DNA from: Rhizobiales bacterium 62-17
GTDB taxonomy: Bacteria > Pseudomonadota > Alphaproteobacteria > Rhizobiales > Beijerinckiaceae
Length of the DNA: 64,000 nucleotides
Direction of reading: 5' to 3'
NCBI GenBank assembly: GCA_001898965.1
Contig: MKVW01000001.1
Location: forward strand, 680,317 to 744,316
Shown: piece by piece, positions 47,256 through 57,801 of the stretch
How the letters are laid out: each line of letters begins with the position of its first letter
Numbering within the stretch: position 1 is the stretch's first letter
The notes under the pieces: generated by a model
Told to the model about the DNA's origin: nothing
Databases searched by the model: none
The model's input: the letters and a program-made list of their open reading frames with translations, nothing else
Position numbers and translations under genes: made by a program

Positions 47256-48008
47256 CTAGCTCGTCTGTAGTTTGAAAAGCGAACCGAACTGGCCCGTCTG
47301 GCCCCAATATTTGAGGGTGTCGAGCACCGCCGCAGGTGAAGCCAGTCGATGTTGGGCGACCGTATCGAGATTGCCGACATGGATCGACACGCCGTCATTG
47401 TCGTTGACGACGCGAAAGCCATCTTCGTCGGTCAGGTCGTCGCCGATGAAGATCGGGCGGCTGTTGCGATAGTGCGGATGTTTGAGGAAGTCGGCGATGG
47501 CATGGCCCTTACTGGCCTCGGTCGGCAGGATTTCGCCGACACATTTGCCAAGCTGCAAGCGATAGTCCGAACCTAACTCCTTCAAGGCATCGCTGAGGGC
47601 ATGGCGGCAGAGCTTTTCCGCCTCCACCGCCTTGCGCCAATGGATGGAGAATGAACAGCCCTTGTCCTCGACGATGACGCCTTGGATGGGCTCCATCGCA
47701 CGTTTCACTTTCTCCAGCGCCAGCGTCAGCTCCGGTCGCCCGGTGATGTCGCAGCGTGTGGTGACGTCACCGGCGCGCGTTTCCAAGCCATGCAGACCGG
47801 CCGCGTCGAACATGAGCGGCCGCAGAAAGCCGTCGAGCACGTGCAAGGAGCGGCCGCTGACAATGGCGAAGCGGCCATCGAGAAGGAGCTGCAGTTCCTG
47901 CAGGGTGGGGATCAATGTGGTGTCGATCACCACATTGTCGGGCCGTGAAGCGATGTCGACCAGCGTGCCGTCGAAATCGAGGAAAAGGGACCAGGTCTGC
48001 GTCGTCAT
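47256..48008 (-). CDS. otsB: Trehalose-6-phosphate phosphatase
   Basis: A HAD-superfamily phosphatase releasing trehalose from trehalose-6-phosphate. Motif I is LFLDFDGTLVDIA, motif II region AIVSGRS, and the acidic motif near the end is IFIGDDLTDEDGF. The OtsB core HGLETRAGD and GCSFSIHWRKA are visible. The length is 250 residues. It overlaps the otsA fusion by four bases. Confidence 0.95.
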   Translation of the reverse strand: MTTQTWSLFLDFDGTLVDIASRPDNVVIDTTLIPTLQELQLLLDGRFAIVSGRSLHVLDGFLRPLMFDAAGLHGLETRAGDVTTRCDITGRPELTLALEKVKRAMEPIQGVIVEDKGCSFSIHWRKAVEAEKLCRHALSDALKELGSDYRLQLGKCVGEILPTEASKGHAIADFLKHPHYRNSRPIFIGDDLTDEDGFRVVNDNDGVSIHVGNLDTVAQHRLASPAAVLDTLKYWGQTGQFGSLFKLQTS

Positions 48009-50236
48009 GCGCTGCTCCCTGGCCGCGCTTCCTGCATCGGCTCGAGAATGCGTTGACGGTTGCGCAGGCGCGAAGCTTCTACCAGCATCTGCGCCGCCCA
48101 GCGATAGACATTGCGTTCGCGCACCAGCGTGCGCATGAGCTGCATGCGCTCGCGCTGCTGATCTTCCGGCATGGTCAGCGCCTGCTGGAAAGCCTCGGCC
48201 GTGCCATAGGCATCATAGGGATTGATCAGCAGGGCCGCCTGCAATTCGCGCGAAGCGCCTGCGAATTGCGAGAGGATTAGCACGCCCTGATCGTCGTCGC
48301 GCGCGGCGACAAATTCCTTGGCCACCAGATTCATGCCGTCGTGCAGACTGGAGACGACGCAGACATCGGCCGCGCGGAACAGTTCGAACACTTCCGCCGG
48401 CTCATGATGGCGGATGACGAGAATGATCGGCTTGTAGGTATCGGTGCCGTGTTTCTCGTTGATGGCTTCGGCCAGAAGCACGGCTTCATCCTGCAGTTTG
48501 CGGTAGGAATCGAGTTTGGTGCGCGTCGGTGCCGCCACCTGCACGAGGACGAAGCGGCCGATCCACTCCGGATGGCGCGTCAGGAAGTCGTCCACCGCAT
48601 GCATGCGGTCGACGACACCTTTGGTATAGTCGAAACGCTCGACGCCGATGGCGAGATAGGCGTCCTGATCGATGCCAAGCCGCTCGCGCACGATGCGCCG
48701 GCATTCGGGCACCGGCTTTTGCGCCTTCATGGCGGCCGGCGGCCAGTCGATCGAGATCGGATAGGGCCGGATCAGGCATTCATGCTCTTCCAGCGTCACC
48801 GAGGCATTCTCGCGGTCGATACGGCTTTCGATGAAACGATCCACGGTCTCGAGGAAGTTGTTGCAGTGAAAGCGCGTATGGAAGCCAAGAATGGAGCTGC
48901 CGAGCAGGCCGCGAATGATCTCCTCGCGCCACGGGCAAATGCCGAAGGTCTCGGAGTTCGGCCAGGGAATATGCCAGAAGGTGATGATGGTGGCGCGCGG
49001 CAGACGCTTGCGGATCATCGCCGGCAGAGTGGCGAAATGATAGTCCTGCACCAAAACGATCGGATCGGGCACGCGGGCTTCCTGCTCGACCGCATCGGCG
49101 AACCGTTCGTTGACTTCCTGATAGGTGACCCAGTTGGATTCGCGGAAGGATGGGCGCACGAAGGAGATGTGGCAGAGCGGCCATAGGCCTTCGTTGGCCA
49201 TGCCATAATAATAGCCGTCCTGCTCGTCGTCAGACAGCCAGATGCGGCGCAAAAGATAAGCGGGATCATCGGGCGGTACCTGCACGCGATCATGCCGATC
49301 GACGGTTTCGCGATCGGCCGTGCCGCTACCATGCGCCACCCACGTGCCGCCGCAAGCGCGCATGACCGGCTCCAGCGCTGTCACTAGGCCGCTGGCCGGT
49401 GTCTGCACCGTGATCGTGTCGCCGTTCTTGTTGTGGATATAGGGTTCGCGATTGGAGACCGCGATCACCTGCACATCCGGCAGTTCCTCTTCGATGAGTT
49501 TGCGCAGGGTTTCGGGCGACCAATCGACTTGAATGGGCGTTTCGCCCGTGGTGGCGTCGGATTTCAGATCGCGCACGAGCTTTTGGATTTCAGCCCCGAG
49601 AATGGTAGGCGTGCCGTTGTTGTCGCGCAGCGTGCCGCCTTTGCGTGCATCGAGAATGGTCTGGCGCGCCGAGGCCAGCCACTGCCGCAGCAGAAAGAAC
49701 ATCAAGGCAGCGGCGAGCAGGCTGATGGCGAGACCAACGCCGACGATGCCGATCACCCAATAGAAGCGCACTTCGGCAGCGCGGGCTTCGATGAAGCTCA
49801 GATCATGCAGAATGGCGACATGGCCTTTGGTGTCGCCAGCCGAAATCGGAAAGGTCGCGATATAGAGCCTGCGGCCGGAGTGATTGATGGTCGAGAAATT
49901 CGGCCTGTCGCTGCGCGCCAAGGCCTTGCAGGCGACATCTTTGCCCAGGCTTTTGGTTTCGATAAGCAGATTGTCGTTGTCGTCGCAATACATGATCCCG
50001 ACCAGCCGCTCATCGTCGGCCAGGCGGTCGAACAGTTTCGATACGGCGCTGTCGTCTTTGCGAAGGATGTCGGATTGAATCTGATCTTGAATCGAGTTGA
50101 AGACGAGGCGGGAGCGCAATTCGACATCGCGCCGCGACCACTGGTCGACGACAACGGAGGTGAGAGGCAGAAAGCCGATCACGAGGACGACGATCACGCC
50201 AATGATGAGCGCTCCGTAGCGATAATACGAATTCAA
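48005..50236 (-). CDS. otsA: Trehalose-6-phosphate synthase fused to a membrane sensor-like module
   Basis: A GT20 enzyme making trehalose-6-phosphate from UDP-glucose and glucose-6-phosphate. The catalytic domain (residues ~255-730) has SNREPYIHN, VQDYHFATLPAMIRKRLP, FWHIPWPNSETFG, GVERFDYTKG and SLHDGMNLVAKEF, so the usual binding residues are present. Ahead of it are helix 1 (residues 7-29), a ~125-residue presumed periplasmic domain and helix 2 (~158-182), like a sensor histidine kinase front end. It totals 743 residues against about 470 for ordinary OtsA. The start is TTG 50236 with GAGGAG eight bases upstream. The GH15 gene lies 43 bases upstream and otsB overlaps downstream. Confidence 0.93.
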   Translation of the reverse strand: MNSYYRYGALIIGVIVVLVIGFLPLTSVVVDQWSRRDVELRSRLVFNSIQDQIQSDILRKDDSAVSKLFDRLADDERLVGIMYCDDNDNLLIETKSLGKDVACKALARSDRPNFSTINHSGRRLYIATFPISAGDTKGHVAILHDLSFIEARAAEVRFYWVIGIVGVGLAISLLAAALMFFLLRQWLASARQTILDARKGGTLRDNNGTPTILGAEIQKLVRDLKSDATTGETPIQVDWSPETLRKLIEEELPDVQVIAVSNREPYIHNKNGDTITVQTPASGLVTALEPVMRACGGTWVAHGSGTADRETVDRHDRVQVPPDDPAYLLRRIWLSDDEQDGYYYGMANEGLWPLCHISFVRPSFRESNWVTYQEVNERFADAVEQEARVPDPIVLVQDYHFATLPAMIRKRLPRATIITFWHIPWPNSETFGICPWREEIIRGLLGSSILGFHTRFHCNNFLETVDRFIESRIDRENASVTLEEHECLIRPYPISIDWPPAAMKAQKPVPECRRIVRERLGIDQDAYLAIGVERFDYTKGVVDRMHAVDDFLTRHPEWIGRFVLVQVAAPTRTKLDSYRKLQDEAVLLAEAINEKHGTDTYKPIILVIRHHEPAEVFELFRAADVCVVSSLHDGMNLVAKEFVAARDDDQGVLILSQFAGASRELQAALLINPYDAYGTAEAFQQALTMPEDQQRERMQLMRTLVRERNVYRWAAQMLVEASRLRNRQRILEPMQEARPGSSA

Positions 50237-50279: not shown

Positions 50280-52067
50280 TTACTCCCAAGGCCGACTGAG
50301 ACGGACGGCTGAATTGATCAGTCCGACCATCGAATAGGTTTGCGGAAAATTACCCCAGAGTTCGCCGGTGATATGATCGGCGTCTTCCGAGAGCAGACCG
50401 AAGGAATTGCGAAGGCCCAGCAGCCGCTCGAATTGCGCCACGGCCTCCTCGCGTCGGCCGATGGCGGCCAGCGCATCGACATACCAGAAGCCGCAGATGA
50501 GAAAGCCGTTGCTCATATGGCCGAAGTCGTCATGAGTGGCGTAGCGCAACAAGAGATCGCCACGGCGCAACGATTTGCCGACGGCCTCGACCGTGGCGAT
50601 GAAACGCGGATCCTTGGCTTTGACAAAACCGAGTTCGGCAAGCAGCAGCAAAGTGGCATCGAGATCCTCGCCATCGAAGGTCGAGACGAATGTTCCAAGC
50701 TTGCTGCTGAAAGCGCGCCGATCGATTTCCGCATGAATGGTTTCGGCGCGTTGACGCCAGAATTTGCTGCGGTCGTCGCGGCCGATCCGTTTGGCGATGC
50801 GCGCCAGCCGATCGCAGGCCGCCCAGCACATGACGCTGGAAAACGTGTGGATCGAAGCGATCGTGCGCAGTTCCCAGGGGCCGGCATCGGGCTGATTGAA
50901 CACTTCCGTGGCGCGATGGCCCAGACCTTCGAGCCGCTCGAACAAAATTTCATTGCCCTCGCGCACCAGCCGGTGGTCGAAGAAGGCGTGCATGGAAGCG
51001 AGTACGATGCTGCCGTAGACGTCGTTTTGCACCTGCGTATAGGCGCCGTTGCCTGTGCGCACGGGCCCCATGCCGCGATAGCCGGCAAGCTTCTCGGCGA
51101 TGCGCTCCTCGCGGTCAGAAAGGCGCGAGACGCTGAACAGCGGGCCGATATCCTTGGCGCCGCGCGAATTCTCGTCGTCGACGATGTCGGTGATATAGCC
51201 GATATAGGTTTCCATCGTGCGCGTCGTGCCGAGCCGGTTCAGCGCCTGGATGACGAAATAAGCATCACGCACCCAGCAATAGCGATAGTCCCAGTTGCGG
51301 CCGGTGGAGGGCGCTTCGGGAATGGAGGTGGTCAGCGCCGCAACGATGGCGCCGGTCTCCTCGAAATTGCACATCTTGAGGGTGATGGCCGAGCGGATCA
51401 CCGCTTCCTGCCAGTCGAAGGGGATCGACAGCGAACGCACCCAGTCCTGCCAATGGGCGATGGTTTTTTCGAGAAACTCGCGGCCCATCACGTCGATGCC
51501 GGCGCGCAACGGTTCGTCGGCGCCGAAGAAGAAGGCGAGGGGCCGGTCGACGACGAAGGGCGTCGTGTCGAGGAGATAAGCCACCGGCGCGTCGGTGGTC
51601 AGGCGTAGGCTCATGGTCGAACCCACGAAACGAATGTGGCTGTTGCCGCGTGTCACTTCCGGTTCGTCGGCGCCCCAGTTGAATTTCGGTGTGGCGCGCA
51701 CGCGGATGCGCGGCCGCCCCTTCAAGGGCCGCACGCGGCGCACCACCATCGGCGGCCGGTAGATGCGGTCGAACTGCATGAAGCGAGGCGCGTAATCGGT
51801 GATCTCAAGGGAGTTGCCGACGGCATCGGACAGCACCGTCACAAGGACCGCGGTGTTCTCGATATAGGATTGAGTGCAGGAGACACCGCCGACGAGTTCA
51901 ATCTCGAACATGCCGCCTTGCTGATCGGCATCATTCCCCATCAGCAGATTGCAGAAGACCGGATCTCCATCGAGCCGGGGAAAGCACGACCAAACCATGC
52001 GGGCGCGCTTATCGATCATTGTTGCGATCGAACAATTCCCGATCACAGCAAGGTCGAGAGAATGCAT
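50280..52067 (-). CDS. Glycoside hydrolase family 15 (glucoamylase/trehalase-like)
   Basis: An (alpha/alpha)6-barrel glycosidase, 595 residues. An N-terminal beta domain covers residues ~1-215 (IGNCSIATMIDKRARMVW, CFPRLDGDPVF). The GH15 core shows RNWDYRYCWVRDAYFVIQAL and, near the end, LLSEDADHITGELWGNFPQTYSMVGL. Bacterial GH15 proteins include glucoamylases and trehalases. The operon with otsA and otsB makes trehalose or a related glucan a plausible substrate, but this is inference. ATG 52067 follows GAGGAGACC. Confidence 0.88.
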   Translation of the reverse strand: MHSLDLAVIGNCSIATMIDKRARMVWSCFPRLDGDPVFCNLLMGNDADQQGGMFEIELVGGVSCTQSYIENTAVLVTVLSDAVGNSLEITDYAPRFMQFDRIYRPPMVVRRVRPLKGRPRIRVRATPKFNWGADEPEVTRGNSHIRFVGSTMSLRLTTDAPVAYLLDTTPFVVDRPLAFFFGADEPLRAGIDVMGREFLEKTIAHWQDWVRSLSIPFDWQEAVIRSAITLKMCNFEETGAIVAALTTSIPEAPSTGRNWDYRYCWVRDAYFVIQALNRLGTTRTMETYIGYITDIVDDENSRGAKDIGPLFSVSRLSDREERIAEKLAGYRGMGPVRTGNGAYTQVQNDVYGSIVLASMHAFFDHRLVREGNEILFERLEGLGHRATEVFNQPDAGPWELRTIASIHTFSSVMCWAACDRLARIAKRIGRDDRSKFWRQRAETIHAEIDRRAFSSKLGTFVSTFDGEDLDATLLLLAELGFVKAKDPRFIATVEAVGKSLRRGDLLLRYATHDDFGHMSNGFLICGFWYVDALAAIGRREEAVAQFERLLGLRNSFGLLSEDADHITGELWGNFPQTYSMVGLINSAVRLSRPWE

Positions 52068-52387: not shown

Positions 52388-52597
52388 TCAGGCAGTCTTC
52401 AGGTTGTCCGCAGAGGACTTGCCCGAACGCTTGTCGACGACGATTTCGTAGGAAATCTTCTGTCCTTCGTTCAGGCCGCGCAACCCAGCGCGTTCGACGG
52501 CGCTGATGTGAACGAACACGTCCTTGCCGCCATCATCGGGCTGGATAAATCCGTAGCCCTTTTGATCGTTGAACCATTTCACGGTTCCCTGTGACAT
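52388..52597 (-). CDS. Cold-shock domain protein, CspA family
   Basis: A 69-residue single cold-shock domain protein binding single-stranded RNA or DNA. RNP1 is GYGFIQP and RNP2 is VFVHISAVE. The N-terminus [14 protein letters not shown] is canonical. ATG 52597 is chosen; the frame remains open upstream, and a leader of more than 100 bases may regulate it, as in other csp genes. Confidence 0.95.
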
Positions 52598-52798
52598 AGG
52601 TATCATTCCGTAGTTTACAAGTGCAGATGGTCGCAAATTAGAGGCCTGCAACCGGTGTATTCGAGATTTAGGTAAGAATGTCGTCAGACAGGTCCGCGGA
52701 AGCGGCAAGGCCAAGTCGTTCGGCCGAAAGCTCGAACCATGAATATGGGGGGTACGACCAATTTAATCAAGGCCTGTATTTATACGGGCCAGGCCGCT

Positions 52799-53869
52799 TC
52801 ATTTGCCGTTCTTTTCTCCGGCGGAACGATTGGTGAAATGGGCATTGCCCAGGCCCGTGCCAATAGTGAAAGCGCCCCAATGCTCCACATCCTGCATGAA
52901 AGGCACTTCGCTGAGGCCCTGCACAACGGCGTCATTATGCATGATCACCATGGTGTCGTGGTCGGCGATCGTCGGAATCGCTTCGATGACCGCCTGCGAC
53001 AGATTGAATCGGCTGCTCTCCCAATTGCCCGGCAGGTTTTGCGCGCCCTTGGCGATCGACCCGTCTTCTTCGATCTTCCCGGGGCAGGCGATGCCGATGA
53101 ATGGCGCCAGCTTGTAGCCTTCCTTGGTCGCGCGCGCCGCAAGATCTTGCAGCATGCCGACTAGTTCGCCGACCGCCTCATCACGCTTGGGGTCGTCGTC
53201 GGCGTGCCGCCAGAGTTTCGACTTCCACACGCGCGCCTTGGAGAGGTCTTTGGCCTTTTTGACGTTGGGCTCGACCACGCCGGCGCGCATGTTCGTTCCG
53301 CCGATGTCGACGGTCAAAATGGCGTCGTGGCCCTCGAAAATCCAGGCCGGTGCCAAATGCGCGCAGCCGATCAAGGCCGCTTCATCGGGGTGGTTGCGGA
53401 TCGGTACGAGATCGACGTTGAACTTCTCAGCCTTTAGGATGAGGCCGGCCCGCGCAATCGCCAGTTCGCCGATGCGGCTTTGGCGAAAACCACCGCCGAT
53501 CACGATGCGCTCCGTGTCGCTCCAGGCTTTCAGCTTGAGAAATCTCTGCGCCACGCCGGCGAATTCCTGGGCGAATTCCTCGATGGCGCTTTGCACGACG
53601 CCGCTGGCTTCAAGGTCTCCGCTCGCAAGAATCTCGTCGAGCTTCTTGCGGCTGATGTCCTCGCTCGCATCCTCGCCGAACGGATCGGCGTCCAGTTTGC
53701 GCAACGGCTTGCGCCATTTGTCCAAAAGCTCGTGAAAGGCGCGACGGCTGGCGCGATCGCCGACAAAGCCGTCCTCGTCCTTGATTTCGGCATTGTAGCT
53801 GTCGACGATCACCGAAGGGAGAGTCTTGGCCCCATGCTTGCCGATCGCTTCAATCGTCTGCGTTGCCAT
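52799..53869 (-). CDS. ROK-family sugar kinase-like protein with circularly permuted motif order
   Basis: A 356-residue ASKHA-fold protein whose ROK motifs appear in rotated order. The N-terminal part carries what is normally the ROK C-terminus: a helical segment, RIVIGGGFRQS (GGG at residues 125-127) and DEAALIGCAHLAP. Only then comes the phosphate-binding TVDIGGTNMRAGVV (Asp188), then GIACPGKIEEDGS, AQNLPGNW, the catalytic-region IMHNDAVVQG, and finally IGTGLGNAHF at the very end. The zinc-site CxCGxxGCxE of many ROK proteins is missing. The activity is probably sugar phosphorylation, but the substrate is unknown. The start has AGGGGG upstream. It stands alone between csp and an MFS gene. 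Confidence 0.85.
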   Translation of the reverse strand: MATQTIEAIGKHGAKTLPSVIVDSYNAEIKDEDGFVGDRASRRAFHELLDKWRKPLRKLDADPFGEDASEDISRKKLDEILASGDLEASGVVQSAIEEFAQEFAGVAQRFLKLKAWSDTERIVIGGGFRQSRIGELAIARAGLILKAEKFNVDLVPIRNHPDEAALIGCAHLAPAWIFEGHDAILTVDIGGTNMRAGVVEPNVKKAKDLSKARVWKSKLWRHADDDPKRDEAVGELVGMLQDLAARATKEGYKLAPFIGIACPGKIEEDGSIAKGAQNLPGNWESSRFNLSQAVIEAIPTIADHDTMVIMHNDAVVQGLSEVPFMQDVEHWGAFTIGTGLGNAHFTNRSAGEKNGK

Positions 53870-53923
53870 CGTTGCCCCCTATGTTGCTGGGGATCAACGA
53901 TCAAAACCATCAAATGGTTGCAT

Positions 53924-55462
53924 TCAATGGGTTGAGGCTGTGGGCGTCATTTGCGGCTTTGGGCGGGGCAGACGTAATGCCACGAGCGCCGCGCAGCCTG
54001 CGCCCACGGCTGAAATCAGGGCCGCGACGACAAAACCACCGGAAAATGCCGTCCGCGCCGTTTCCAGTAACAGAGTACCATCGGCTTTGGTGAGGCCGTT
54101 GGCGATCGTTTGCGCGCCCGCCAGAGTTTCGCGCGCCAAGAGCGGGATCGTCGAGCCGTCGGCGAGGGTGCCAGCGTCCATTGCGCGACGGTAGAGGAAA
54201 TTGATCAGGCTGCCGACGGTGGCAATGCCGAGCGCGCCGCCAAGTTCGGTGCTGGTCTCGGCCATGCCGGAGGCCACACCGGCCCGTTCGGGCGGCACCG
54301 AACCGATGATGATGTCGGTGGTCAAGGTGACCGCAGGTCCATAGCCTAAGGCAAGCAGGAGACCCGAGATCACCATCAGCGCTAAACTGCGCTCGGCGCC
54401 CGCATAGCCGAGCAGCAGAAAGCTCAACCCGCCGACGAACAAGCCGAGCGCCATGACCACGGGAATGCCGGCGATCCTCGTCAATCGGGCCGTGATCAGC
54501 GAGGAGACAACGAAGCCAAGGCCGGATGGCGCGGACCAGATGCCGGCTTCCACCGTCGACAATCCCAGCACGAGCTGGAAATATTGCGCGATGAACAGGA
54601 AGGAAGCGAAGCTTGTCGAGAAGCCGATGATGTTGATTGCCAGCGCCGTGCTAAAAGCGCGGTTGCCAAAGAGCGACAGGTCGACGAGCGGTTCATCGAG
54701 CTTCAACTGCCGCAGGCAGAAGAGCACGCCAAAGGCGATGCCCAACAGAATGGCCGCGAATGGCAGGAGGGCGATGCCGCTGTCGGCCAGCACCTTGACG
54801 CCATAGATGACCGGCAGGATGGCGCACAACGACAGCGCGGCGCTGACAATGTCGAGCCGGCCTGCATGAGGATCGCGAAATTCCGGCAGCAGAAAAGGGC
54901 CGGCGATCAGCAGCAGGGCCATCACGGGCAGCGCGATCAAAAACACCGATCCCCACCAGAAATAGGCCAGCATGAAACCGCCGACCACCGGGCCGATGGC
55001 GCCGCCGGCGGAAAAGCTGGCGATCCAGACGCTGATGGCGAAGGTGCGTTCGCGCGGATCGCGAAACATGTTGTGAATGAGCGAGAGCGTGGAGGGCGCC
55101 AGTGTCGCCGCCGCGAGCCCCAGCACCGCGCGCGAGAAGACCAGCATTTCGGCGCTGTTGGAGAAGGCGGCGAGCAGGGAGGCCAAGCCGAAAGCGGTGG
55201 CGCCGATGAGCAGCAGGCGGCGCCGGCCGATGCGGTCGCCGAGCGTACCCATGGTGATCAGGGCTCCTGCTAACAGGAAGCCGTAGATGTCGACGATCCA
55301 CAATAGCTGCGTTGGCGAGGGACGCAGATCGGCGGTCAAATGCGGCAAAGCCAGGTTGAGAACCGTCAGGTCCATGGAGTAAACTAAGCAGGGCAATGCC
55401 AGGACGGCGAGGCCCAGCCATTCACGCCGGCCGGCTTTGGATGCAGCAATCGATTGGGTCAC
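53924..55462 (-). CDS. MFS drug exporter, DHA2 (14-helix, EmrB/QacA) type
   Basis: A 512-residue proton-driven multidrug exporter. N-terminal signatures are DLTVLNLALPHL (motif D1), TMGTLGDRIGRRRLLLIG (motif A) and APSTLSLIHNMFRDPRER, with motif C in SFSAGGAIGPVVGG. About 14 helices can be counted. It starts with GTG 55462 after AGAGG. It diverges from a TTT binding-protein gene. The substrate is unknown. Confidence 0.9.
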   Translation of the reverse strand: MTQSIAASKAGRREWLGLAVLALPCLVYSMDLTVLNLALPHLTADLRPSPTQLLWIVDIYGFLLAGALITMGTLGDRIGRRRLLLIGATAFGLASLLAAFSNSAEMLVFSRAVLGLAAATLAPSTLSLIHNMFRDPRERTFAISVWIASFSAGGAIGPVVGGFMLAYFWWGSVFLIALPVMALLLIAGPFLLPEFRDPHAGRLDIVSAALSLCAILPVIYGVKVLADSGIALLPFAAILLGIAFGVLFCLRQLKLDEPLVDLSLFGNRAFSTALAINIIGFSTSFASFLFIAQYFQLVLGLSTVEAGIWSAPSGLGFVVSSLITARLTRIAGIPVVMALGLFVGGLSFLLLGYAGAERSLALMVISGLLLALGYGPAVTLTTDIIIGSVPPERAGVASGMAETSTELGGALGIATVGSLINFLYRRAMDAGTLADGSTIPLLARETLAGAQTIANGLTKADGTLLLETARTAFSGGFVVAALISAVGAGCAALVALRLPRPKPQMTPTASTH

Positions 55463-55653: not shown

Positions 55654-56658
55654 ATGTTGAGAGTTGATTTCAAATATCGTGGCGTCTCGCTGGCCGCAGC
55701 GATGGGGCTTACGTTTGCGGCCGCCACCGCCGTATCGGCGCAGAGCAATTTTCCGAACCGGCCGGTCAATCTGATTTCCGATTCGGCGCCGGGAAGCTCG
55801 AACGACGTGTCCGTTCGCATCGTCGCCGAGCAGTTGAGCAATCTGTGGCGGCAGCAGGTTGTCGTCATGAACTATCCGGGTGCCGGTGGCGGCATCTCGG
55901 CGCGCACGGCCTCTCAGGCCACGCCAGACGGCTATAATTTCTACATGCCGGCAGCTTCGGTTTTTCTGGCGCTAAAGGGCGCGCCGGGAACGGCCCCTAA
56001 TCTGCCGGTCGAACTGCCGCGCGATTTCATCCCGGTGGCCTTCGTCTCGTTGCAGCCGATCTTCATCGCTGTCTCGCCGAAGCTCAACGTCAGCTCCTTT
56101 TCCGAGTTGATTGCTCTGGCGAAGCAAAAACCGGGCGAGATTTCCTTCGCGGCGACAGGCAAAGGCCGCATCACCCATCTGACGATGGAGCTCTTTCAGG
56201 AGCGGGCGGGGGTCAAACTGACTTTCGTGCCTTACGCGGGCGGCCCGGCCGCCGCGATGAACGACGTGGCGACCGGGCGCGTCGGTATCGTGCTGGACGG
56301 TTATTCCAGCCTCGCCGGCGCCATTGACGGCAACATGATCAAGAGCATCGGCGTTGCCGCGCCCGAGCGGCTGCCGCAATTCCCCAATTTGCCGACTGTC
56401 TCCGAAGTCCTTCCCGGTTTCTTTGCCGGTGGCTGGAACATCATCGTCGCGCCCTTGGGGACACCGGCTGATATCGTGAAAAAGGTTGGCGAGGACGTGA
56501 ACAAGATCCTCGATAATCCCGATGTCATCCAGAAGTTCGAGAAGCTCGGCACCTATCCGCGCAAAATGTCGTCCGAGGAAGTCGGCGCCTTCGTGAAGCG
56601 CGAACAAGAAGTCTGGCGGCCGATCCTCGAAAAGGTCGCCAAGGAAGACGGCAAGTAA
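55654..56658 (+). CDS. TTT (Bug/TctC) family substrate-binding protein
   Basis: A periplasmic binding protein, 334 residues, with a signal peptide ending near AVSAQS. The Bug-family pattern is FPNRPVNLISDSAPGSSNDV, VVVMNYPGAGGGISART and ATPDGYNFYMP. GGGGGG precedes the ATG. It is highly similar to the next gene, so the pair arose by duplication. No TctA or TctB gene is close. Confidence 0.92.
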   Translation: MLRVDFKYRGVSLAAAMGLTFAAATAVSAQSNFPNRPVNLISDSAPGSSNDVSVRIVAEQLSNLWRQQVVVMNYPGAGGGISARTASQATPDGYNFYMPAASVFLALKGAPGTAPNLPVELPRDFIPVAFVSLQPIFIAVSPKLNVSSFSELIALAKQKPGEISFAATGKGRITHLTMELFQERAGVKLTFVPYAGGPAAAMNDVATGRVGIVLDGYSSLAGAIDGNMIKSIGVAAPERLPQFPNLPTVSEVLPGFFAGGWNIIVAPLGTPADIVKKVGEDVNKILDNPDVIQKFEKLGTYPRKMSSEEVGAFVKREQEVWRPILEKVAKEDGK

Positions 56659-56713: not shown

Positions 56714-56799
56714 AGGCATGTCAGGGGCTTGAATCGGTCGATCTAAATCCGATATAGGCTACCGATTTAGTAGGGATATTGTTCCGGAAAGGGCAAATC

Positions 56800-57801
56800 G
56801 TGAGATTGTTTTTGAAAGGGCGTGGCGCCCCGTTGCTTGCCGCCATCGGACTGACGCTGGCCGCCACGGCGGCGCCGGCGCAAAGCACTTATCCGGATCG
56901 GCCGGTCACGTTCATCTCCGATGCGCCACCGGGGCTCTCCAGCGACGTGGCGACCCGTATCGTCGCTGAGCAGTTGAGCACGATCTGGAAGCAGCAGGTG
57001 GTTGTTCTCAACCAGCCGGGCGGTGGCGGCAGCATTTCCGCCCGCGCCGCCTCGCGTGCCGCGCCTGATGGCTACACGTTCTACACGCCGTCGAACTCTA
57101 CGTTTCTGCAGTTGAAGGGCGCCGCCGGTGTGGCGCCCAATCTGCCGATCGAAATGCCGCGCGACTTTCTGCCCGTCGGCTTCATTTCGGTGCAGCCGAT
57201 GCTGATCGGCGTGTCGCCGAAGCTCAATGTCAGCAGCGTCGCCGAACTGGTCGCGCTGGCAAAGCAGAAGCCGGGCGAGATCGCTTTCGCGGCGACCGGT
57301 CGCGGCCGTTTCACCCATCTGACGATGGAACTGTTTCAGATTCGCGCCGGCGTGAAGCTCACCTTCGTGCCCTATACCGGTGGTCCTGCGGCCGCGATGA
57401 ACGACGTCACCTCGGGGCGTGTTGGCATCATCGTCGATGGCTATCCGGGCATCGGCGGTGCCATTGAGGGCGATCTCATCAAGGGGCTCGGTGTCGGTTC
57501 GAGCGAACGCTTGAAGGAGTTCCCCAATCTGCCGGCCATCGCCGAGACACTGCCGGGTTTCTTCGCCAGCGGCTGGACGATCTTGATCGCGCCAGTTGGT
57601 ACGCCCGACGAGATCCTGAAGAAGGTCAGTGCCGATCTGAACAAGGCGCTTGAGTCGCCCGATCTTCTCGCCCGCTTTTCCAAGCTCGGTCTCTATACCA
57701 ACAAGACCGCTCTCGCCGATGCCGGCGAGTTCGTGAAGAAGGAACAGGAGACCTGGCGTCCCGTCCTCGAAAAGGTGGCGAGCGAGGACACCAACAAGTA
57801 G
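56800..57801 (+). CDS. TTT (Bug/TctC) family substrate-binding protein, paralogue of the upstream gene
   Basis: A close paralogue of the protein from 55654-56658 through its whole length (KLNVSSVAELVALAKQKPG, RGRFTHLTMELFQIRAGVKL in pieces, GGPAAAMNDVTSGRVGI). GTG 56800 is chosen because GGAAAGGG lies upstream and a clear signal peptide (LLAAIGLTLAATAAPAQS) follows. Overlapping inverted repeats at 56732-56770 precede it. It ends directly against the convergent FMN dehydrogenase gene. Confidence 0.91.
   Translation: MRLFLKGRGAPLLAAIGLTLAATAAPAQSTYPDRPVTFISDAPPGLSSDVATRIVAEQLSTIWKQQVVVLNQPGGGGSISARAASRAAPDGYTFYTPSNSTFLQLKGAAGVAPNLPIEMPRDFLPVGFISVQPMLIGVSPKLNVSSVAELVALAKQKPGEIAFAATGRGRFTHLTMELFQIRAGVKLTFVPYTGGPAAAMNDVTSGRVGIIVDGYPGIGGAIEGDLIKGLGVGSSERLKEFPNLPAIAETLPGFFASGWTILIAPVGTPDEILKKVSADLNKALESPDLLARFSKLGLYTNKTALADAGEFVKKEQETWRPVLEKVASEDTNK

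Follow-up and report, generated by a model that had tools for sequence, protein, structure and literature searches.

A circularly permuted ROK-type sugar kinase with a probable place in the alphaproteobacterial general stress response

Can a sugar kinase carry its conserved motifs in rotated order and still build the fold of its family? Few enzymes are circularly permuted in nature, and the question is raised here by a single gene in the window, by which we mean the whole stretch of DNA that was analyzed (64,000 nucleotides). A first-pass annotation had read its product as a ROK-type kinase in which the family motifs are all present but rotated, with the chain cut just after the GTGxG strand and the old termini joined by a short linker. 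The gene and the parts of its product are as follows.

52799..53869, minus strand: gene of the permuted ROK/ASKHA kinase, 356 aa, ATG start
53348..53869, minus strand: former C-terminal lobe, residues 1–174, from just before the ExGH-region position to the old C-terminus
53828..53836, minus strand: family-specific HGA motif, residues 12–14, beside the canonical ExGH position after rotation
53489..53506, minus strand: IVIGGG, adenosine motif, residues 122–127
53321..53347, minus strand: linker from old C-terminus to old N-terminus, residues 175–183, the gap between two profile matches
52823..53320, minus strand: former N-terminal lobe, residues 184–349
53294..53308, minus strand: DIGGT, phosphate-1 motif, residues 188–192
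53021..53038, minus strand: NLPGNW, sugar-loop-like motif, residues 278–283
52931..52939, minus strand: HND with the putative catalytic Asp313, residues 311–313
52847..52861, minus strand: GTGLG, phosphate-2 motif near the new C-terminus, residues 337–341

Two further motifs, DEAALIGCA and CPG, occupy residues 162–170 and 262–264. By ROK nomenclature we take IVIGGG to be the adenosine motif, and by analogy with ROK kinases we presume the sugar-loop role of NLPGNW and the catalytic role of Asp313. ROK (PF00480) was the sole Pfam family above its cut-off in the 356 residues (30.7 vs. 22.9 bits), and its best stretch placed residues 185–347 on profile positions 2–141 of 294. The NCBIfam model NanK (N-acetylmannosamine kinase) matched residues 101–173 with its positions 216–286 of 291. 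The protein thus starts with what is usually the end of a ROK kinase and finishes with what is usually the start. An ADENOSINE motif of ASKHA proteins is mentioned in the available part of PMC1079889.

The rotated order is a property of a family. We collected 172 permuted open reading frames, a number that includes some genes more than once; setting aside seven partial frames left 165 at full length, and removing near-copies (≥90% identity) left 66 non-redundant members, from which the family profile was built. Regular expressions found the phosphate-1 motif (D[ILV]GG[TS]), NLPG, the catalytic ND (as HND) and the phosphate-2 motif (GTG[ILV]G) in 66/66 members and the adenosine motif in 63, and the GGG of the latter is invariant in two family alignments. 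The first-pass annotation had proposed a search for homologues sharing the order of motifs as a check on its reading, and GGG, DxGG[TS]N, HND and GTGxG indeed follow one another in 65 of the 66; relative to the linear order of PF00480 (phosphate-1, catalytic Asp, phosphate-2, adenosine motif), theirs is rotated in 65/66. Compared with the copy in genome G022, the window gene has a dN/dS (NG86) of 0.086 over 353 codons, which indicates purifying selection at the protein level.

An artefact, whether a chance fusion, a frameshift, an assembly error, two unrelated pieces or a chance reading of motifs, was ruled out by these numbers: the 165 full-length frames come from many assemblies, and among the plasmid records that match, 207 in all (111 from Rhizobium, 79 from Sinorhizobium, 9 from Shinella), 204 cover at least 80% of the protein in one place. 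We give that explanation next to no weight.

For a test at the level of profiles, a canonical profile was made from the 15 linear ROK frames that passed a motif filter among 21 loci of carrier genomes. In native order, hhalign gave two disjoint matches, swapped relative to a canonical ROK: residues 177–334 against canonical columns 3–136 (E = 2e-6) and residues 76–168 against columns 213–298 (E = 4.5e-6), both in the numbering of a trimmed query (add 7 for the full protein). The annotation had named an IGGG region unrelated to the ROK C-terminus as a finding that would speak against it; the second match places that region on the ROK C-terminus. The profile was then rotated in steps of 25, with rotations 168–176 added around the optimum, and a rotation of ~175 alone fused the two matches into one, spanning 291/300 columns at E = 7.9e-11 (7.5e-11 to 1.3e-10 across 168–176). 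A canonical-ROK HMM (E ≤ 1e-3) matched 47 of the 172 permuted frames, and in 47/47 the segment from the C-terminal part of the model came ahead of that from the N-terminal part.

The rotated alignment also locates the break. In it the new N-terminus, HGAxxLPSV, coincides with the ExGH-x-PLP region of canonical ROKs, GFxGDRAS coincides with their GCxExxCS region, and the aligned part of residues 1–174, which covers canonical columns 213–298 in native order, covers about 137–298 after rotation. This puts the opening of the chain in the stretch that separates the GTGxG hairpin from ExGH, in line with the cut that the annotation had proposed. A short linker between the old termini stands as well; its proposed extent, LAPAWIFEGHDAIL, does not, since the profile assigns HLAPA to the old C-terminus and ~9 residues (roughly 175–183) are left to bridge the old ends.

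In the predicted structure model, each half matches the expected lobe of ROK structures. The N-terminal half (the lobe of residues 1–174) matched mainly ROK C-lobes, and the full model, compared with tools bound to chain order, was captured mostly through its C-terminal half; PDB sequence searches recovered at best the N-lobe. By this order-bound comparison the two-lobed ASKHA fold is found half by half, in line with the earlier proposal that the fold is kept with new termini, and from sequence and model a single ASKHA cleft would be re-formed by both lobes together with the nucleotide site and the catalytic Asp. The product of 52799..53869 is almost certainly a naturally circularly permuted chain of a ROK-type (ASKHA-fold) sugar kinase.

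How widely does this arrangement occur? Of 61 genomes in the set of relatives, 12 carry the permuted gene, the source genome included. At class level 17/385 genomes matched: 16 have full-length scores of 431 bits or more, and the remaining one reaches 24.5 bits. At phylum level 49/398 matched, 22 at full length above 370 bits and 27 with 18–25 bits over part of the N-lobe; all eight of these weak matches that were examined proved to be linear ROKs. A contig search returned at least 586 relatives, of which 80 were kept, and in two profile searches of a protein database 8000 and 7649 of the 8000 candidates scored each time passed E 1e-10, which are relatives by sequence with no permuted order implied. 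Acidovorax, Variovorax and Comamonadaceae appear among the protein matches listed, and the hosts are Alphaproteobacteria and Comamonadaceae-type bacteria. Database labels range over ROK family protein, glucokinase, predicted NBD/HSP70 family sugar kinase and hypothetical protein. A phage origin was considered and dropped, since a search of a phage collection, at the sensitivity used, came back empty.

Some individual records deserve mention. Two genomes of the same order, G634 and G618, each hold two full-length permuted copies. A record titled Frankia sp. RB7 (JAUEPE010000043.1) has a copy that shares 67% identity with the window protein, in which it resembles the rows from Bradyrhizobium, and is possibly a mislabelled or mixed assembly. 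Roseiarcaceae bacterium H3SJ34-1 (JARHVB010000010.1) and genome G030 have identical sequence upstream of the permuted gene.

In a tree of N-lobes the 17 sampled permuted rows form one clade (99/99), and together with six linear PPGK-like ROKs they stand opposite 23 canonical ones (95/94), a grouping that carries a long-branch warning. The six (L163, L164, L224–L227) are ~240-aa linear ROKs of some Alphaproteobacteria; the two that were scanned are related to polyphosphate glucokinases. The tree invites the reading that the protein is a permuted glucokinase dependent on polyphosphate, or on polyphosphate and ATP, whose N-lobe derives from the PPGK-like branch and whose donor in stress is polyphosphate. 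The N-lobe aligns with the six over 133 columns at 32% identity (score 88.7, E = 3e-12), compared with a score of 51.5 against the 15 canonical ROKs, and for the two scanned relatives the model of polyphosphate-glucose phosphotransferase, NF045942, gives E = 7e-31 and E = 4e-30. However, those two reach 108 and 105 bits where the cut-off is 250, and so are not themselves assigned to that family; the permuted protein, at 21.2 bits, falls below the same cut-off. It also retains the adenosine GGG motif, and its C-lobe could not be matched with the PPGK-like profile in any of the 12 rotations tried. We consider polyphosphate dependence unlikely.

What, then, has the rotation left of the active site? 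ExGH and CxCGxxGCxE are the sugar and zinc motifs typical of many ROK kinases, and ROK enzymology has assigned roles to the Mg-ATP and catalytic-base elements. By motif count, ExGH occurs in 0/66 members vs. 13/15 canonical ROKs and CxCGxxGCxE in 0/66 vs. 10/15. The counts as a whole indicate that the Mg-ATP and catalytic-base elements are retained while the usual zinc elements and part of those of the sugar site are gone, so that the sugar site must differ from that of an ordinary ROK. A motif of the family's own, HG-x3-L[PT], is present in 63/66 members and 0/15 canonical ROKs. H12, W220, H222 and C262 are among the residues invariant in a 53-row alignment, and HGAxxLP, WRHADD and GDRAS are consensus stretches peculiar to the permuted family.

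The carriers have other means of phosphorylating glucose. An ordinary Glk (PF02685) is encoded in the source genome and, with the source counted, in 35 of the 45 carrier genomes searched, so the permuted kinase is not generally the sole glucokinase; that it is the sole one in the source genome can be rejected. Neither PF02685 nor a linear ROK was matched in two of the 45, G634 and G702, at the sensitivity of that search, at which the PF00480 scan of the source genome missed even the permuted gene, so that its zeros for linear ROKs hold at that level only. These two cases are compatible with, and no proof of, a glucokinase function for the permuted protein.

Many ROK proteins are repressors, and the presence of a second glucokinase in most carriers, with the loss of ExGH and CxCGxxGCxE throughout the family, would suit a non-catalytic derivative that binds sugar or regulates, a pseudokinase acting as sugar sensor in the stress response. 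Against this, 66/66 members keep the phosphate-1, phosphate-2 and HND catalytic-Asp motifs, and with ROK as the sole Pfam family no DNA-binding domain was recognized; a pseudokinase is quite improbable. The protein is probably an active kinase, and most likely, as far as activity and substrate can be deduced, an ATP-dependent hexose kinase of the general stress response.

The choice of sugar is less secure. Even with real ROK kinship the substrate could be something other than glucose, either a polyol or one of the amino sugars ManNAc and GlcNAc: ManNAc kinases head both the NCBIfam and the structure matches, and a different sugar site may be formed by the HGA and WxH residues, which are unusual. 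Yet the scores against ManNAc kinase families lie far below their cut-offs (NF003461, 24.8 vs. 283 bits; NF047821, 21.9 vs. 450 bits), and the informative neighbours of the gene, described below, concern trehalose and osmoprotection, not the use of sialic acid or amino sugars. A substrate of this kind is a possibility that we hold to be on the doubtful side, and glucose as the main substrate is a candidate at somewhat less than even odds.

The region in front of the gene bears on when the kinase might be made. GGAAC-N16-CGTT is the consensus of general stress response promoters in Alphaproteobacteria, the class to which EcfG is confined, according to the available part of PMC3892343. The permuted gene of the window has a feature of this type before its start codon.

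53896..53921, minus strand: promoter-like site of EcfG type, GCAAC-N17-CGTT, which differs from GGAAC-N16/17-CGTT at one position; 26 nt before the ATG

The exact motif is absent from the window gene's own promoter. GGAAC-N16–18-CGTT matched once in the window, away from that promoter, with 1.5 matches expected, and for the loosened pattern shuffles gave 1.3 chance matches per window. The window copy, G022 and G030 have in common GCAAC-N16/17-CGTT at about the same place.

Across the family, allowing one mismatch, a spacer of 16–17 and a distance of up to 150 nt, a site precedes 54/66 members vs. 71/1728 other called genes of the same loci, controls that include operon-internal genes and whose upstream stretches end at the called start codon, whereas those of the permuted genes end where the alignment starts, near the HGA motif; because the 66 members are related, the 54/66 measures conservation of the site and not 54 independent events. 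Exact sites with the same spacer precede 16/66 members vs. 11/1728 other genes within 150 nt, and 16/66 vs. 12/1724 within 200 nt. With a spacer of 15–18 and up to 250 nt the count was again 16/66, and random windows from the same loci gave a mean of 0.84 and a maximum of 5/66 in 50 draws. Most sites lie 72–125 nt before the aligned start, the others at 28 and 142. All 54 site-bearing members are among the 61 taken as alphaproteobacterial from the title of the record or a kinship code (in one case the title goes no further than Pseudomonadota), which leaves 7/61 with no site; by the one-mismatch, 150-nt rule, none of the five members from outside the class has a site.

The general stress response has NepR as its anti-sigma factor (available part of PMC8092242), and the source genome encodes NepR; the same paper places otsA and otsB of B. 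diazoefficiens under EcfG control. On the promoter evidence, we consider it probable that in Alphaproteobacteria the permuted kinase belongs to the EcfG/PhyR/NepR regulon. The available parts of PMC3892343, PMC3188799 and PMC8092242 contain no mention of the permuted gene that we could find, and in the accessible portion of the function literature the one mention of a ROK protein concerns the transcription factor SMa2004.

The surroundings of the gene in the window point to trehalose.

53924..55462, minus strand: MFS transporter (PF07690), upstream of the permuted gene
52388..52714, minus strand: cold-shock-domain protein (PF00313)
50280..52067, minus strand: GH15 with trehalase-like N-terminal domain (PF00723, PF19291)
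48005..50236, minus strand: trehalose-6-phosphate synthase (GT20; PF00982 at residues 257–720) with a 256-aa N-terminal extension
47256..48008, minus strand: trehalose-6-phosphate phosphatase otsB (PF02358)

From the permuted gene toward lower coordinates, the genes for the cold-shock protein, GH15, trehalose-6-phosphate synthase and otsB follow on the same strand. The 256-aa extension of the synthase had no Pfam match and shows by eye a hydrophobic start and a second hydrophobic stretch; the product of 48005–50236 may thus be an OtsA that is anchored in the membrane or linked to a sensor. Farther upstream, two adjacent and similar genes lie on the plus strand (55654–56658 and 56779–57801), the first for a TctC-type solute receptor by Pfam and the second similar to it by eye.

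Elsewhere the context varies. In R. laguerreae, R. etli CFN42, R. acidisoli and Shinella, the permuted gene and otsB are transcribed divergently; in S. meliloti, where the pSymB homologue lies near 477–478 kb of NC_003078.1, the divergent partner is a peptidase of the NAGGN osmoprotectant system. A plasmid from Bradyrhizobium has ferritin-like, PRC-barrel and Hsp20 genes close to the permuted gene, and in Phyllobacterium it comes after a threonate-type catabolic locus. In 77 of 124 loci, mostly from Bradyrhizobium and its kin, ribosomal-protein/Obg-type genes are nearby without trehalose genes (gene calls were heuristic, based on GC3, and recovered the permuted gene in 121/124 loci); the neighbour clusters we presume, from their sequences, to be rplU, rpmA and obgE. 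Trehalose genes as a universal context can therefore be rejected, since Bradyrhizobium-type loci, Phyllobacterium and S. meliloti differ. Among the relatives, otsB is present in 10/12 carriers vs. 19/49 non-carriers, a modest difference that ignores kinship. Trehalose metabolism matters for legume symbiosis (available part of PMC8092242).

The explanation that we prefer overall, at a probability of roughly 0.7, is a permuted ROK hexose kinase that is probably regulated by the general stress response and has glucose as its leading candidate substrate. The chain is opened between the GTGxG β-hairpin and the usual ExGH region, the old C- and N-termini being linked by ~9 residues. ATP-Mg and hexose would bind in the cleft between the lobes, and the γ-phosphate of ATP would pass to the sugar, with Asp313 as the base. 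Under osmotic or desiccation stress the enzyme might recycle glucose, for instance from trehalose turnover, to glucose-6-phosphate; to judge from the neighbours, the adjoining trehalase-like GH15 could be one source of the glucose, and the product could feed trehalose-6-phosphate synthase or central metabolism.

Natural permutations reveal which breaks in the chain a fold tolerates. Here a widespread family of plant-symbiotic and soil bacteria, with an active site made from swapped halves, has been filed as an ordinary ROK protein or glucokinase; given the swapped halves and the missing ExGH and CxCGxxGCxE, automatic annotation of specificity by homology is unsafe. The family is likely tied to the general stress response, and some species probably link it to trehalose metabolism as well. 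The annotation had known of no described permuted ROK kinase, and a literature search that covered mainly papers outside subscription journals found neither one nor any other permuted ASKHA sugar kinase. We offer, as a tentative suggestion with the odds against it, that this is the first recognized natural circular permutation of an ASKHA sugar kinase, possibly a fusion of a PPGK-like N-lobe with the C-lobe of another ROK, that it spread through Alphaproteobacteria and on into Comamonadaceae-type bacteria, and that it is a hexokinase dedicated to general stress, whose sugar site has been rebuilt without zinc and whose donor is possibly polyphosphate.

How does the family compare with known systems? 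With the ROK kinases of PF00480 (GlkA, NanK, NagK, fructokinase) it has in common the ASKHA lobes and the DxGG[TS], GTGxG, IxGGG and catalytic Asp motifs. In contrast to them, its lobes are swapped, its termini lie between GTGxG and the ExGH region, and it has neither ExGH nor CxCGxxGCxE. The PPGK-like ROKs (NF045942) are the closest linear relatives of its N-lobe among those compared, and the NDAxVQGL and GTGxGxAxF stretches are nearly common to both; they are, however, linear and ~240 aa long, with a C-lobe that does not align to the permuted one. Bacterial Glk (PF02685), which phosphorylates glucose with ATP on an ASKHA fold, presumably catalyzes the same reaction, but it is a separate linear family encoded elsewhere in the source genome. 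Circularly permuted GTPases and type 2 ATP-grasp proteins are other naturally permuted enzymes; their folds differ from that of the permuted kinase, and in them too the fold is kept with new termini.
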